Shown piece after piece: positions 10,016-17,284 of a stretch of 20,503 nucleotides of DNA. The notes beneath the pieces are model-generated. The model had not been told where the DNA came from, did no database searches, and saw only the letters and a list, made by a program, of their open reading frames with translations. The stretch comes from a virus, in IMG/VR virus record IMGVR_UViG_3300030451_003415, positions 1-20,503 of that record. One strand, 5' to 3'. The number at the start of each line of letters is the position of its first letter. The stretch's first letter is position 1. The translations under genes and the position numbers were made by a program.

Positions 10016-10403
10016 AACCCCTCGTGTTTATTGCTTTTATTATTTCTTCGAGGATATCAACCAATTCCTGCTGATACGCAATCTTCGTATTCAGCTGGAC
10101 CATTTCAGAATCACTTTCTACATAATGAGATACTTCCTGCTTGAGTCTTTTGAATTCATAAGGTTCACGACCCAACTCAGCAAGATCCTCAGGATTATTT
10201 AAATCGCCTCTGTAGTAATCGGTAAGGCGAGTGCTTAGTTGTTTGTGCTTCATCTTAAAAGCACGAAGCTTCAATCTCTCATCTGAGAAATGCTTCAAAT
10301 ACTTACCATGTAAGAGAGGAATGTTTAAACTTTCTCGTGATAGTTCGGTTTCATCAATCTTTACATCCTCTTGCCACATACTAATAATATCTTCAATCTT
10401 CAT
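9966..10403 (-). CDS. uvsY: Recombination mediator UvsY
   Basis: A 145-residue protein matching T4 UvsY (137 aa), which loads the UvsX recombinase onto single-stranded DNA covered by gp32. The match with T4 as I recall it includes the N-terminal K-x-E-D-I...D-x-x-I-D pattern, the LTDYYRG segment (about residues 59-65) and the C-terminal INTRGYVIKN...LDFLRF block (about 124-141). I chose the ATG at 10403, where ATGA overlaps the stop of the IscA-like gene; an ATG at 10430 would only add nine residues encoded inside that gene. Its 3' end overlaps uvsW by 50 bases. In T4 these two genes are also adjacent, in the opposite order. Confidence 0.9.
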   Translation of the reverse strand: MKIEDIISMWQEDVKIDETELSRESLNIPLLHGKYLKHFSDERLKLRAFKMKHKQLSTRLTDYYRGDLNNPEDLAELGREPYEFKRLKQEVSHYVESDSEMVQLNTKIAYQQELVDILEEIIKAINTRGYVIKNSLDFLRFTSGQ

Positions 10404-10705
10404 ATACCGAAACTTTCTCCACATCCACAACTTGAAGTTGACATTGGGTTCTTAACCGCAAGGAACGAACCACCTAATTCATTTACATAATCAACCGTAC
10501 TACCTAATATATATAACTCTGCGACCGGGTCGACAACGAGTACATCATCGATAGGATCACTCCAATCTACACTCGGATTGTCAGACTTTAGTCCCCATAT
10601 ATATTGAAATCCGGCACAACCTCCACCCTGTACACCTAACGATACATAATCATTGCCACGTACTGAATTGAGATACTCTTTAGCGGACTCAGTAATAGTA
10701 ACCAT
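10400..10705 (-). CDS. A-type iron-sulfur carrier protein (IscA/ErpA-like)
   Basis: A 101-residue HesB/IscA-domain protein that would bind and deliver Fe-S clusters (or iron) to target proteins. The three invariant cysteines are present: Cys30 in GGGCAGFQY and Cys93/Cys95 in SSCGCG, with the normal spacing of about 63 residues. The length is that of a complete stand-alone protein. AGGAG stands six bases before the ATG at 10705 and a consensus promoter lies just upstream. It is the first gene of the operon uvsY-uvsW-55-47-46 and is coupled to uvsY by ATGA overlap. Similar genes are known from cyanophages. Possible clients are Fe-S enzymes of phage or host; none of the neighbours visible here is a known Fe-S protein. 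Confidence 0.93.
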   Translation of the reverse strand: MVTITESAKEYLNSVRGNDYVSLGVQGGGCAGFQYIWGLKSDNPSVDWSDPIDDVLVVDPVAELYILGSTVDYVNELGGSFLAVKNPMSTSSCGCGESFGI

Positions 10706-11634: not shown

Positions 11635-13020
11635 TTACATAAGATTGCTGACCGTAACGATGCGGTAGTAGATGTTCTTCTTCTGCGAAGAAAGCGCACC
11701 GTCAGCTGCCGTCGTTGCGAAAGGATTAGCGACCATGCCGTAGCGAGTCTTAAATCCGATTTTTGGTTGGAACGTATTCTCACCAACCGCACGAACCATC
11801 TGTAGAGGAACGTATGGGCAGTAGAATAATCCGGCATCAAAGGCAGAAGCACCTTTGTAACCGACCGTGACGTATTGATCTCCACCAGCAGAGGCGAAGT
11901 ACGGATCGATGTAAACCTTAGTCCGACCGTTGAGAACACCAGCAAACGTGTTACCTGTATCGTCAACATTCAAGTTCGAGCTAAGAGCAGGTGTATAATC
12001 GAGAACACCGGCCATCTGCAGAGCAGATGCAACATCCGAACCACAGATCATTACGTTACCTTTACCGCGGCGGGTAGACTTGGCAATCTGATTGGCTTCA
12101 CGCTCAATCTGGAAGACAAGACCTTTAAACCGCTCAACACTCCAGCGGCCGTTGGCATCGACGTCGAGGTCGAAAGTACCAGCCGTTGTCGTATTGTCCT
12201 GGGCACCTGCTGTAGCCGTGTAGTTGATCGTACGAACAACTTCGCGGTTGATCTCAGCAAGAATCTCAGCAGACAGGATGTTGCTGAGTTCGGTTTCAGC
12301 GTCGAGACCGTGGATGGCTTTAAGATCTTGAGCCAACTCCATGGTGTACTCCGCTTTCAGCGCGCGAGAGACGGCCGTGACGGCAACCTTCTCGATGCTG
12401 AATGCCATTTCCGAAATCTCGTTCGTTGTGGCATCGCCGAATGCTTCAGCCGTAGCAGTAGAAGCACCAGTGGCAACGGTATATCCAGAACCGGAAGCAC
12501 GATCCGTTGGATCGGAACCTGTCTGAACCGTAGCAAATCCGCTTGTGTCAAGCGCGTTCTTAATGTTAGCACCACCAACCGCGTTGTTCGAAGATGCAGA
12601 GAACGATGTGCTTGCTTCGTTATAAAGCGCTTCGTTACCAGACTGGCTGGCTGTACGAGGACGCATAGCGAAGATCAAGCCCGTTGGACCCGACATCGGT
12701 TGAACACCGCAGATATCGTATGCGATGAGGTTTGGCATTGAACGACGAACCAGCGAAATAAGTACTGGATCGAAGATATCAACAGCACCCGCCGCAGCCG
12801 TGGAGCTCGAGGCACCCATAGCGTTGGTTGGCGCCGCTTCGCCGAGTAGAGTAGGCATTGCATAACCACCCGAACCCATAGCGGATTCGCGTGAAGCCTT
12901 CTCCTGGTTTTCTAGAAGAGTTGCTGTGACGGCACGACGATGAGGATCCTTAATCTCTCCGAGGTCGGGATGCTCAATGACTGGCTGCCACTTCTTCTGT
13001 AGTTCTTCAGATAGGAACAT
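11635..13020 (-). CDS. 23: Major capsid protein gp23
   Basis: The main head protein, 461 residues (T4 gp23 has 521). The N-terminal 61 residues form the charged, helical delta domain that is removed during head maturation. A gp21-type cleavage site L-x-E before A is seen at LGE-A (residues 59-62), close to the T4 site near residue 65. The mature part shows the usual gp23 features: VDIFDPVLISLVRRSMPNL (about 79-97) and PTGLIFAMRPR (about 111-121). Regular, G+C-richer codons than the neighbours suggest high expression. A late promoter at 13060, GGAGA before the ATG and a strong terminator after the gene make it a separate transcription unit, although read-through from gene 22 is possible. Confidence 0.97.
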   Translation of the reverse strand: MFLSEELQKKWQPVIEHPDLGEIKDPHRRAVTATLLENQEKASRESAMGSGGYAMPTLLGEAAPTNAMGASSSTAAAGAVDIFDPVLISLVRRSMPNLIAYDICGVQPMSGPTGLIFAMRPRTASQSGNEALYNEASTSFSASSNNAVGGANIKNALDTSGFATVQTGSDPTDRASGSGYTVATGASTATAEAFGDATTNEISEMAFSIEKVAVTAVSRALKAEYTMELAQDLKAIHGLDAETELSNILSAEILAEINREVVRTINYTATAGAQDNTTTAGTFDLDVDANGRWSVERFKGLVFQIEREANQIAKSTRRGKGNVMICGSDVASALQMAGVLDYTPALSSNLNVDDTGNTFAGVLNGRTKVYIDPYFASAGGDQYVTVGYKGASAFDAGLFYCPYVPLQMVRAVGENTFQPKIGFKTRYGMVANPFATTAADGALSSQKKNIYYRIVTVSNLM

Positions 13021-14233: not shown

Positions 14234-14890
14234 TTAGAGTTGCTTCAAGAAGTTTTCAAAGGCTGCGATCTTTGCTTCCTGTAGATCATTTCTTGATGCT
14301 TTTTTGATTTGTGTTTGAGTTTTCTCAATGTACTGAGGAACCCAACGATCGTCGACTTGTAACCATTCAACTCCTTCCATAACACCCTCTACGAATGCAT
14401 CGGGTGCAGAAGGATCGGCTACAATATCAGCAGCTGTTGCCAACTGAAAATCTGATGAAACAATATTTGTTCCATCTTTACCTTGTTTCAGAGTACCCAT
14501 ACCTCTTGATGAAACGCCGAGCTTAGCTCCTTCATCCATAAGATTCTTTACGATCTTACCCATAGGAGTTTCGGTCATTATTTTCGCTTTACCCATGATG
14601 TTATTACCATCCTGGTGTAACTCTTTCACCATATGTGATACGCGTTCAAGATTGATAGTCGGACCCTGCGGATGACCAAGTTCTCCATACGCACGATTCT
14701 GCTCGACATATTCTTTGTTATATCGCTTAACTTCTTTGAGGAGAGTTCCGATAGGATACATACGACCATTGCGGTTCTTAATCTCTCCCTGCATAAAGAC
14801 GCCCTCGATGAAATAGTTCTTACCACCGTCTTCCTTAGCTTCGGTGATGAACTGAACATCAGTGTCGATCATTTCGGTGATAAGTTTCAT
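14234..14890 (-). CDS. 21: Prohead maturation protease gp21
   Basis: The serine protease (herpesvirus-assemblin-like fold) that cuts scaffold and capsid proteins in the prohead. Of 218 residues (T4 has 212), the catalytic histidine is His73 in GELGHP and the catalytic serine is Ser128 in GVSSRG, the same offset as T4 His85 and Ser140. NRNGRMYP (39-46) is typical of the family. Two L/I-x-E sites before A occur within the protein itself, ITE-A (15-18) and LQE-A (203-206), which suits the known self-cutting of this enzyme. It has its own late promoter, and is separated from gene 68's position by three accessory genes. Confidence 0.95.
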   Translation of the reverse strand: MKLITEMIDTDVQFITEAKEDGGKNYFIEGVFMQGEIKNRNGRMYPIGTLLKEVKRYNKEYVEQNRAYGELGHPQGPTINLERVSHMVKELHQDGNNIMGKAKIMTETPMGKIVKNLMDEGAKLGVSSRGMGTLKQGKDGTNIVSSDFQLATAADIVADPSAPDAFVEGVMEGVEWLQVDDRWVPQYIEKTQTQIKKASRNDLQEAKIAAFENFLKQL

Positions 14891-14914: not shown

Positions 14915-14922
14915 TATTTATA
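14915..14922 (-). promoter_or_regulatory. T4-type late promoter TATAAATA (gene 21)
   Basis: An exact TATAAATA on the minus strand, 24 bases above the ATG of gene 21. It overlaps only the gap after the 84-aa orphan gene, so gene 21 can be transcribed without the accessory genes. Confidence 0.82.
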
Positions 14923-14923
14923 A

Positions 14924-15178
14924 TCAATAACCCTGCAAGACCTTTAATCCCATCTTTCGACCGGAACTATCGTGCTGAACCATGATCATGAAATCGTGCG
15001 TGCCTGGATCGAAAGATCCTTCATCCGATACCATCGAGTAACCAGATGGTAAAGCACCGAGTAAAGCTTCTATGTCGCTAGCCCGATCAGTATCTGATGA
15101 AGTCCACGAATCCATTTCTGATGCATCCGTTGCTTCACTGTTTCTAATTGCATTCTTGATTTCTGTTAAGTTTGCCAT
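14924..15178 (-). CDS. Hypothetical 84-residue protein of the accessory head-region cluster
   Basis: A small acidic protein I do not recognise. The N-terminal half is Ser/Asp/Thr-rich and probably helical (EIKNAIRNSEATDASEMD), and the C-terminal half looks like a few beta strands (SMVSDEG, HDFMIMVQHD, KMGLKVLQGY). No cysteine, no signal peptide, no membrane segment. It starts three bases after the stop of the LamG-like gene and ends just before the gene 21 promoter, so it is the last gene of the three-gene insertion. It may be a chaperone, linker or minor head protein for its neighbours; that is a guess from position only. Confidence 0.7.
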   Translation of the reverse strand: MANLTEIKNAIRNSEATDASEMDSWTSSDTDRASDIEALLGALPSGYSMVSDEGSFDPGTHDFMIMVQHDSSGRKMGLKVLQGY

Positions 15179-15181
15179 TTT

Positions 15182-16045
15182 CTATACCTGATATCTTGTA
15201 GGTGCATTGTCATAAAGAATTGCTGCTTCAGCTGCACTTACTGCCTTATTATAAACTGCGCAATAACCGACGCCGTCATTTTGTCCCATTGGGAATCTTG
15301 GGTTGCTCAAGTTAGCATCGAGCAAGCTACAAAGCCAGTGCCAATTATGCGTTGAGTTTCCAGTTGACGGAGAACTGTAAGTCAGAGTGAAAGTGTCGAG
15401 AGTAGCATCGTTATTATAAAAGAAACTGCCGTTGGTTACGCCTTCATCTACAGATATCACAAGGTGATTCCTTCCATTGGCGATCGATGAAGTACTTACT
15501 TTACCAGCGCAAAAAGACCCAGCAGTTCCTCTATGAATATTTAACTGTATTCTTCCGTCGTTATAAGTCTGTAGACTAATGCCTGTATCGTTAGTATCTT
15601 CTGCTGTACAGATGACAAACCCTCCTTGACTAGAGGGTTTATGAATACCTATCTCTATGGTAAACTGAGCACCATCTTTATGCAGAGAATTTGTAAAGGT
15701 TGTATTTGTCTTAAACCCTTCCATCGTAACGAAGTCGGCTGATGAGTTACTGACCTGTGAGTAGTATTTGTTACCACTATCATAATTTGGATCACGAGAA
15801 TCAGAACCAGTGCTGGTTCCTTGTCTCACATCATAAGTCGTCTGAGATGATCCATCTGCCGGAGACGATTCTTGGTTCGCAATTGTTTGGGATGTAGTTG
15901 AAACTTCGGCGTTCCACATAAACACACGGGATTCGAGTATAGATTCAATAGTAGGACCACCGCCACCACCGGCAGCAGAAATAACCGCTGCTGTTTGTGA
16001 TGCAACTATTGAAGTTGTTGGTGAGACACCGACACCTAATTTCAT
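15182..16045 (-). CDS. LamG/concanavalin-like lectin-fold protein, probable virion decoration
   Basis: A 287-residue protein with a hydrophobic Ala/Ser/Val N-terminal stretch, then a run of five glycines (26-30), a Ser/Thr-rich linker (about 48-105) and a C-terminal domain (about 105-285) that reads as a jelly-roll lectin fold. It has repeated strands FTIEIGIHK, GGFVICTAED, GRIQLNIHRG, NHLVISVDEG and GSFFYNNDA, and a closing YCAVYNKAVSAAEAAILYDN typical of LamG-like domains. Such domains often bind sugars. The gene lies among head genes with GAAGGG before its ATG, so the product is probably on the capsid surface or a head fibre. The N-terminal stretch is not a convincing signal peptide. No counterpart is known to me in T4. 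Confidence 0.72.
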   Translation of the reverse strand: MKLGVGVSPTTSIVASQTAAVISAAGGGGGPTIESILESRVFMWNAEVSTTSQTIANQESSPADGSSQTTYDVRQGTSTGSDSRDPNYDSGNKYYSQVSNSSADFVTMEGFKTNTTFTNSLHKDGAQFTIEIGIHKPSSQGGFVICTAEDTNDTGISLQTYNDGRIQLNIHRGTAGSFCAGKVSTSSIANGRNHLVISVDEGVTNGSFFYNNDATLDTFTLTYSSPSTGNSTHNWHWLCSLLDANLSNPRFPMGQNDGVGYCAVYNKAVSAAEAAILYDNAPTRYQV

Positions 16046-16061
16046 AACGATGCCCTTCTTT

Positions 16062-16340
16062 TTAGTACAACCCTACCACTGAGTTTGCCGTACCTACAGT
16101 GCGAACTTTACGAACACGAATTGGTAAAGTCGTTCCTGCTGGAACTGCAGTGAAAGTGGTGGTTGTTCCGGATGCATCATCTGCCATCTCGACAACTAAG
16201 TTACCTGCGGAACCGACGTATACAGCACGTGTTGTAAATGCAAGGTTAGCACTTTCATTCGATGTAATGGCAAACCCTTTTGTAGCAGGACCCTCGAATG
16301 TTGCGGGAAAGAATCGGAATTTATCTGTTTGATCTGGCAT
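16062..16340 (-). CDS. Small beta-rich protein resembling the GTA/phage spike-base family
   Basis: A 92-residue protein with the pattern of a small family found in phages and gene transfer agents: an N-terminal F-x-x-A-x-F-E-G-P-A segment, a middle TRAVYVGSAGNLVVEM (about 37-52), a central TFTAVPAGTTLPIRVRKV (about 61-78) and an end SVVGLY. I recall this as the spike-base (RCAP_rcc01079-type) family of the Rhodobacter gene transfer agent; the name is from memory. GGAG is six bases before the ATG at 16340. Directly upstream of the lectin-fold gene, it could be the base or anchor that fixes that protein to the head. It could also be a capsid cement protein. Confidence 0.6.
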   Translation of the reverse strand: MPDQTDKFRFFPATFEGPATKGFAITSNESANLAFTTRAVYVGSAGNLVVEMADDASGTTTTFTAVPAGTTLPIRVRKVRTVGTANSVVGLY

Positions 16341-16350
16341 CTGTCACTCC

Positions 16351-17040
16351 TTAGGCCGCTGCTTTCGCAAAGTCAACCATCGCATCGAAAGATTTCTTAT
16401 CCTTCATTGCTTCGGTTTCCATCTTTTTGCGATTGCCCGGATTTAATTGTTTCATGGCATTGTTGAGAAACTTTGCCGTCTTTTCATCGATCTTAACTGT
16501 CTTACCATCCTTGAGCTTAAGCATTCCTTTCTTGAATGCTTCATCGATGTAATCAGCTTCTTCCTTCATCAGTTTATTAAAATTCTTTTTGAGATATGCA
16601 TTCGCTGATGCCATATCTTTGAAGCTTTTAACAATTTTTCCGGCAGCGTTCATGACATGTTTGCCATCACGGTCAGATGAAACATACGGCTTTTGTTTTT
16701 CATTTAACTCGACTTCTTCTTTGATCTTTGACGATCCTTGCATTACGGGTGTTTTATCCCCACCTGGTTTTGCAGCGGAACGAGTGCCAGATACAAAGTC
16801 CGAGTATTTCTTTAGAATAGGTTCACCTTTACCAGATTCTTTCTTAGGTATTTCACCACTAAAAACATAATCCGGTGCAACTGGATGATCCTTAGGCATT
16901 ACAAGATTGGCATTATGCGTAGTGTGCAGATTCTTGAACTTTTGTTCATCGTCACTTGCCGCTTCATAATCCTTTTGGCTCTCGCCATCACCCACGTAAT
17001 CTTTTGCATCTTTTTCGAGTAAGTCTCTAAACTTCTTCAT
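16351..17040 (-). CDS. Protein in the gene 68 position, probable prohead core protein
   Basis: A 229-residue, lysine-rich, highly charged protein with little hydrophobic core. It starts MKKFRDLLEK and has a disordered-looking middle (about 35-115, with many K, P, G, S). A compact segment around DGKHVMNAAGKIVKSFKDMA (125-144) and a helical C-terminus (about 155-229) follow. Its place between gp67 and (in T4 order) gene 21 is that of gp68, a minor prohead core protein of 141 residues in T4; this is longer and I see no clear sequence match. The ATG at 17040 lies inside the gp67 gene with GGAGGAA upstream, so the two are coupled. A core protein is the best guess. Confidence 0.6.
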   Translation of the reverse strand: MKKFRDLLEKDAKDYVGDGESQKDYEAASDDEQKFKNLHTTHNANLVMPKDHPVAPDYVFSGEIPKKESGKGEPILKKYSDFVSGTRSAAKPGGDKTPVMQGSSKIKEEVELNEKQKPYVSSDRDGKHVMNAAGKIVKSFKDMASANAYLKKNFNKLMKEEADYIDEAFKKGMLKLKDGKTVKIDEKTAKFLNNAMKQLNPGNRKKMETEAMKDKKSFDAMVDFAKAAA

Positions 17041-17276: not shown

Positions 17277-17284
17277 TATTTATA
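17277..17284 (-). promoter_or_regulatory. T4-type late promoter TATAAATA (gp67)
   Basis: An exact TATAAATA on the minus strand, 25 bases above the chosen gp67 ATG and just after the portal stop. It would drive gp67, the gene-68-position gene and the accessory genes behind them. Confidence 0.82.

Follow-up and report, generated by a model that had tools for sequence, protein, structure and literature searches.

A candidate vertex head spike with exchangeable lectin-type arms in the head gene module of a marine-type T4-like phage

Gene content and borders of the cluster

The window, as we call the DNA analyzed here, is a virus record of 20.5 kb. It belongs to a marine-type T4-like phage, and its genes are read on the minus strand. 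In the direction of reading the gene order is gp18, gp19, gp20, a gp67-like gene, an ORF of 229 aa, three ORFs of 92, 287 and 84 aa, and then gp21, gp22, gp23 and onward. The ORF coordinates agree with the location given in the first-pass annotation: the three genes lie between the gene-68 position and gene 21, and all are on the minus strand. The 92-aa ORF (16062..16340) matches the RCAP_Rcc01079 family of spike bases, the 287-aa ORF (15182..16045) encodes the putative spike fibre, and the 84-aa ORF, called orf84 (14924..15178), encodes a possible helper or passenger. The gaps between the 229-aa ORF, the 92-, 287- and 84-aa genes and gene 21 are 10, 16, 3 and 33 nt, in that order. The 5′ border is formed by the 229-aa ORF (16351..17040, minus strand), which is kept in relatives and gave no significant match in profile searches against Pfam, PHROGs and NCBIfam; the name 'gene 68' is for this ORF only a positional one. 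The 3′ border of the exchangeable segment is gene 21, encoding the prohead protease (14234..14890, minus strand; Pfam Peptidase_S77, E 8.7e-36). The major capsid protein gp23, the predicted docking surface, is encoded further on at 11635..13020 of the same strand (Pfam Gp23, E 4e-146).

Seven copies of the T4 late promoter word TATAAATA were counted in the window, each on the coding strand, against a chance mean of 1.6 for both strands. A scan of the window found no copy within the three-gene cluster. The nearest upstream copy precedes gp67 (17277..17284, minus strand) and the copy belonging to gene 21 lies just past the cluster (14915..14922, minus strand), which bears out the earlier statement that the cluster has no promoter of its own except that of gp67. 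No prominent sigma-70 promoter or terminator signals were found in the window.

The 92-, 287- and 84-aa genes are each conserved as ORFs in independent IMG/VR contigs; the related contigs that we compared with the window are numbered L004, L006, L021 and so on. In S-SM1 and P-SSM2, which are cultured marine T4-like cyanophages, a single small ORF lies between gp20 and gp21 and the spike cluster is absent, so the cluster is accessory. Several relatives carry another insertion nearby that the window does not have. Between gp20 and gp67 they encode a protein of about 500 aa with collagen repeats (Pfam Collagen, E 1e-20; L026:1229-2797, L065:2306-3793), and L005-L009 have a similar-sized gap at this place. 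The collagen-repeat protein is a second candidate head or neck fibre. Elsewhere in the window, amid structural and recombination genes, an ORF of 101 aa (10400-10705) looks by eye like an IscA/HesB-type iron-sulfur carrier.

The base and fibre proteins

The 92-aa protein matched the NCBIfam model NF048002, 'spike base protein, RCAP_Rcc01079 family', with 80.7 bits (cut-off 28; E 7.4e-23) and phrog_12296 with E 1.8e-18. As a single sequence it matched Rcc01079, the spike base of the gene transfer agent RcGTA (PDB 6tb9), with E 3.9e-8, and a profile from six T4-like relatives matched the same spike base with E 2.3e-10. Among solved structures the RcGTA head spike base is the clear match; a further entry named 'Spike Base Protein' (PDB 8cjz) matched the base query weakly (E 0.42). 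By these matches, the 92-aa protein belongs to the family of RcGTA head-spike bases. The gene is intact across the relatives that have the cluster, with a sequence conservation of 66-95%, and the six-sequence alignment of the base held no stretch conserved enough for scanning. Spike-base proteins are labeled 'tail fiber protein' in phrog_12296 and in the GenBank records MW353175-MW353177 and JQ066768, which is probably a misnomer.

The 287-aa protein starts with MKLGVGVSPTTSIVASQTAAVISAAGGGGG and combines an N-terminal putative plug peptide with a linker of Ser/Thr/Ala and Gly and a distal domain that we call B. The lectin-type jelly roll is contained in the terminal ca. 250 residues. An AlphaFold2 model had a mean pLDDT of 61, with best blocks of 80-93 and values below 50 for the first 28 residues. 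The core of the model resembled CBM40 and other ConA/LamG-type jelly rolls in a Foldseek search (E 5.8e-7) and viral ConA-like proteins with E 2e-8 to 6e-8; a VIA search gave Z 15.2 and an rmsd of 3.3 over 193 aligned residues, to be read with the mean pLDDT of only 61. Searches with the 287-aa fibre and orf84 against Pfam, PHROGs and NCBIfam returned nothing useful, and no relatives of either were found in the phage collection. Pfam Laminin_G_3 directly matches the related fibre types A, C and D, described below, and also the fibre of phage P8625. The model gives the distal part of the window fibre a LamG/ConA lectin-type fold, a fold that by itself is not proof of sugar binding. Clostridial neurotoxin binding domains, which stood at the top of the fold list, share only the common lectin jelly roll at 11-16% identity, and this match was discarded as functionally meaningless.

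The first 12 codons of the fibre gene (16010..16045, minus strand) encode the predicted plug peptide MKLGVGVSPTTS. It begins with MKLGVGVSP, in which hydrophobic residues, proline counted, occupy positions 1, 3, 5, 7 and 9. In RcGTA an alternating hydrophobic peptide of the single fibre (IALGLGLGL) plugs five pockets of the base pentamer (PMC7296036). Residues 2-10 of the RcGTA fibre Rcc01080, with which we compared the start of the window fibre, contain five alternating hydrophobics, and at the sequence level MKLGVGVSP resembles this plug. In many plug-type starts the alternating hydrophobics likewise number five, as many as the pentamer has pockets. The window fibre fits this count if Met1 is kept and Pro9 is counted; retention of Met1 is expected before Lys, given the specificity of methionine aminopeptidase.

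In other phages, too, the gene that follows the spike base was found to start in this way, with MGLGLGIGLGL in RcapNL, MIGLGLDLSL in P8625 (a LamG protein), MLIGLGIGIGF in Pben1 and MYIGLGISL in Immuto. We formulated a strict plug rule that asks for three alternating hydrophobics within residues 2-15, with small residues between them of which one is Gly. A strict plug was present directly downstream in 11 of 43 spike-base family clusters and at 5 of 788 control ORF ends (p 7e-12). With the five clusters that had suggested the rule held out, the count was 6 of 38 (p 2.5e-6). In the other 32 of the 43 clusters the strict plug is missing, so the base also occurs without a plug partner, or the partner is encoded elsewhere. 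The starts in the T4-like lineage are looser (MKIGLSPGP; MKIGSGVGT in L055/L057; MQIGFQVGT in L004), and of nine T4-like members two satisfied the strict rule and seven a loose one. We therefore base the proposed plug identity in the T4-like fibres on position, first residues and conservation, and not on the strict pattern.

A conserved base with exchanged arms

In the T4-like contigs with a readable region the base is found between the gene-68 position and gp21, and the order of base and then fibre is conserved in every T4-like relative that was read through. About 30 N-terminal residues of the fibre are kept among these relatives and the remainder is swapped. The distal part is domain B in the window, L006 and L021, domain A in L026 and L055, domains A and C in L030, domain C in L057 and domain D in L004. 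A fibre with A and B occurs in L021 and probably also in L020, where the contig holds only the end of A; L021 has two fibre genes with the same anchor. Two comparisons illustrate the exchange. L004 and the window are 91% identical in gp23 DNA and 91% identical in base DNA, and their arms are unrelated. Conversely, the DNA of L030 and L057 is 98.1% identical in domain C and 99.5% in the next gene, of 63 aa, against 64.6% in gp21 and 70.6% in the base, and each of the two has retained its own anchor. At the sequence level, a conserved base and anchor with swapped LamG domains is how a receptor-binding part mounted on a fixed socket behaves.

The third gene, orf84, accompanies domain B. It lies directly after fibres that end in domain B (window, L006, L014, L020 and L021) and is also present in L025, whose contig ends within the preceding gene. 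Its conservation in the domain-B relatives is 89-94%. It is absent in L004, which has domain D. In L026-L031, where the fibres have domain A or C and different small ORFs are present, only the final 24 codons remain; orf84 is therefore dispensable for the base. The structure model of orf84 was uninformative (pLDDT 54). The helper function proposed for this protein in the first-pass annotation is unproven: relatives lack the gene or retain only a remnant of it, and have other small ORFs in its place, next to other LamG domains. The 84-aa protein may be a helper specific to domain B, or its gene may be carried along with the domain as a passenger. In several loci the domain type is paired with a particular small ORF (B with orf84, A with MYQ64, C with the 63-aa gene), with an exception in L021/L022, where an A-containing fibre occurs without MYQ64. 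This pairing could be plain co-transfer.

The 24-codon remnant is near-identical ahead of gp21 in L026-L031 (e.g. L027:1827-1898) and marks a recombination border. A programmed frameshift joining the 64-aa ORF (MYQTW...) to these last 24 codons of orf84 was ruled out: the 64-aa ORF stands as an intact, independent gene without this tail in L020 and L055, and we regard the 24 codons as a scar.

A proposed head spike and competing explanations

We consider it likely that the cluster encodes an RcGTA-type spike at the vertices of a T4-like head, by which the phage would attach reversibly to surface sugars of the host. The placement of the late promoters counts in favor of this reading. In this model, the 92-aa base, a jelly-roll protein, would sit in five copies on gp23 pentamers at the non-portal vertices. 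Each spike would hold one 287-aa fibre, of which the peptide M-K-L-G-V-G-V-S-P would run across the base pentamer with its hydrophobics filling the five pockets; we infer this docking from the structure of the RcGTA spike and from the N-terminal pattern that the two fibres share. The flexible Gly/Ser/Thr/Ala linker would then extend the LamG/ConA-type domain onto a host glycan, giving weak and reversible capture before the tail engages. Comparison of the relatives shows that base and anchor stay in place and that the distal LamG domains are traded from phage to phage, as a receptor-binding part would be. The 84-aa protein would be a dispensable partner or passenger of domain B. The earlier proposal of a head-surface system built from a base and a LamG arm is thus upheld in its main part by base homology, the plug-like N-terminus, synteny in the head module and the evolution of a conserved base with variable arms; the 84-aa helper that was part of it is unproven.

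A location on the tail or baseplate, with base and fibre together making up a side fibre or tip, appears unlikely to us. This alternative draws on the name 'tail fiber protein' in phrog_12296 and GenBank, and on the small siphophages RcapNL, P8625 and Pben1, in which the pair is encoded near tail-fibre or lysis genes. The latter is not decisive, as RcGTA shows that the place of a gene does not fix the place of its product in the virion. The solved homologue sits on the RcGTA head. The first-pass annotation had named occurrence of the same genes in tail-fibre loci of related phages as evidence against a head function, but in the T4-like relatives the base gene belongs to the head module, with head genes around it in every case, and in none of those read is it encoded with tail or baseplate genes. 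In a survey of the genes upstream of the base in ca. 40 representatives of the whole base family (75 proteins), the named PHROGs hit by more than one of them were most often portal, terminase, head morphogenesis, minor head and head protease families, each with small counts. In the T4-like Immutovirus, which has a Flavobacterium host, the base directly follows gp23. The 160-kb Immuto record yielded no second Gp23-type gene (gp24), so a spike would there probably stand on gp23 pentamers.

We assign a similarly low probability to a base that decorates or stabilizes the head next to an unrelated LamG protein, separately attached or released and adjacent by chance. The lack of a strict plug-type gene downstream of most spike bases is compatible with this, as is the occurrence of domain B without a plug in L115-L118, where no base was detected in the two fragments searched. 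Chance adjacency does not agree with the base-fibre order kept in every T4-like relative read through, nor with the conservation of the 30 N-terminal residues of the fibre when the rest is swapped. That the three genes are merely recombination-hotspot cargo (morons), hitchhiking between late promoters without a function in the virion, seems very improbable: frequent swapping, the orf84 scar in L026-L031 and the absence of the cluster from S-SM1 and P-SSM2 would suit such cargo, but the base is intact and conserved in those relatives that carry the cluster, and the same base is found independently in the Immutovirus head module.

The proposed head spike can be compared with several known systems. 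The RcGTA spike (Rcc01079/GhsA base and Rcc01080/GhsB fibre; PDB 6tb9/6tba) has a homologous base, a fibre gene directly downstream of it, alternating hydrophobics at the fibre N-terminus and a lectin-like distal part, and its fibre binds the host capsule (PMC7296036, PMC10218006). The RcGTA spike genes lie outside the main RcGTA cluster and adjoin capsule genes, whereas the window cluster is part of a T4-like head gene run, with gp23 as capsid protein and a LamG-type distal domain that is swapped between phages. The first-pass annotation knew of no described system of this make-up. A base with an N-terminally plugged fibre is the known GhsA/GhsB arrangement; its occurrence on a T4-like head appears to be new, and a search of a literature collection that covers few subscription papers found no paper on GTA-type spikes in T4-like phages. 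Immutovirus (Flavobacterium phages immuto, cultured on Flavobacterium sp. LMO8) has the same base family in a T4-like head module (QQO92123), followed by a 546-aa gene with the MYIGLGISL start (QQO92124). The base is there located after gp23 and not before gp21, and the distal part consists of arrayed repeats that gave no LamG match.

T4 Hoc is a head-surface fibre of a T4-like phage (PMC10385173). It is a single protein present in 155 copies, with a C-terminal capsid-binding domain and Ig-like domains, whereas in the window the base is a protein of its own and the arm, of LamG type, would be anchored by its N-terminus. The window fibre gave no Pfam or PHROG match, and its conserved attachment part is N-terminal. 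Agrobacterium phage 7-7-1 has, as proposed for the window phage, a single fibre at each capsid vertex, with a proposed Ig-domain base, and RcGTA is not mentioned in that paper (PMC12796354).

Adsorption of T4-like phages is normally credited to the tail fibres. If the head-spike reading is true, uncultured marine T4-like phages gain a head-borne, recombining binding module, and head and tail could both grip host cells. It would also account for proteins wrongly named 'tail fiber', connect gene transfer agents to T4-like phages by way of a common socket, and provide a short, testable anchor sequence by which such arms can be found in other genomes. A general plug-and-socket rule, which we put forward tentatively and rate at somewhat below an even chance, would make the Rcc01079-type base a widespread vertex socket across unrelated capsids, T4-like ones included. 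A short N-terminus of alternating Leu and Gly would mount any adhesin on it. The result would be a freely exchangeable host-range module on the head, with each LamG domain bringing a small helper gene of its own.

Other arrangements were observed in more distant contigs. In L115-L118 (e.g. L116:5947-6798), distant T4-like relatives with 62% identity in gp23, domain B is located on a protein encoded after gp23 and a 682-aa fibre-like gene. The domain-B protein starts with MLHSVPAGVVSAAYS and has no plug, which represents a different mount for the same adhesin domain. L116 also encodes a 151-aa protein with no assigned family (20-475) directly before gp21, at the position of the spike cluster, which may be another decoration protein. 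In L053 and L056 the gene after the base has the plug-type start MYIGLGLSLL followed by a sequence that by eye is von Willebrand-A-like (DIVFLVDYTGSMGS); non-LamG adhesins may therefore use the same socket.
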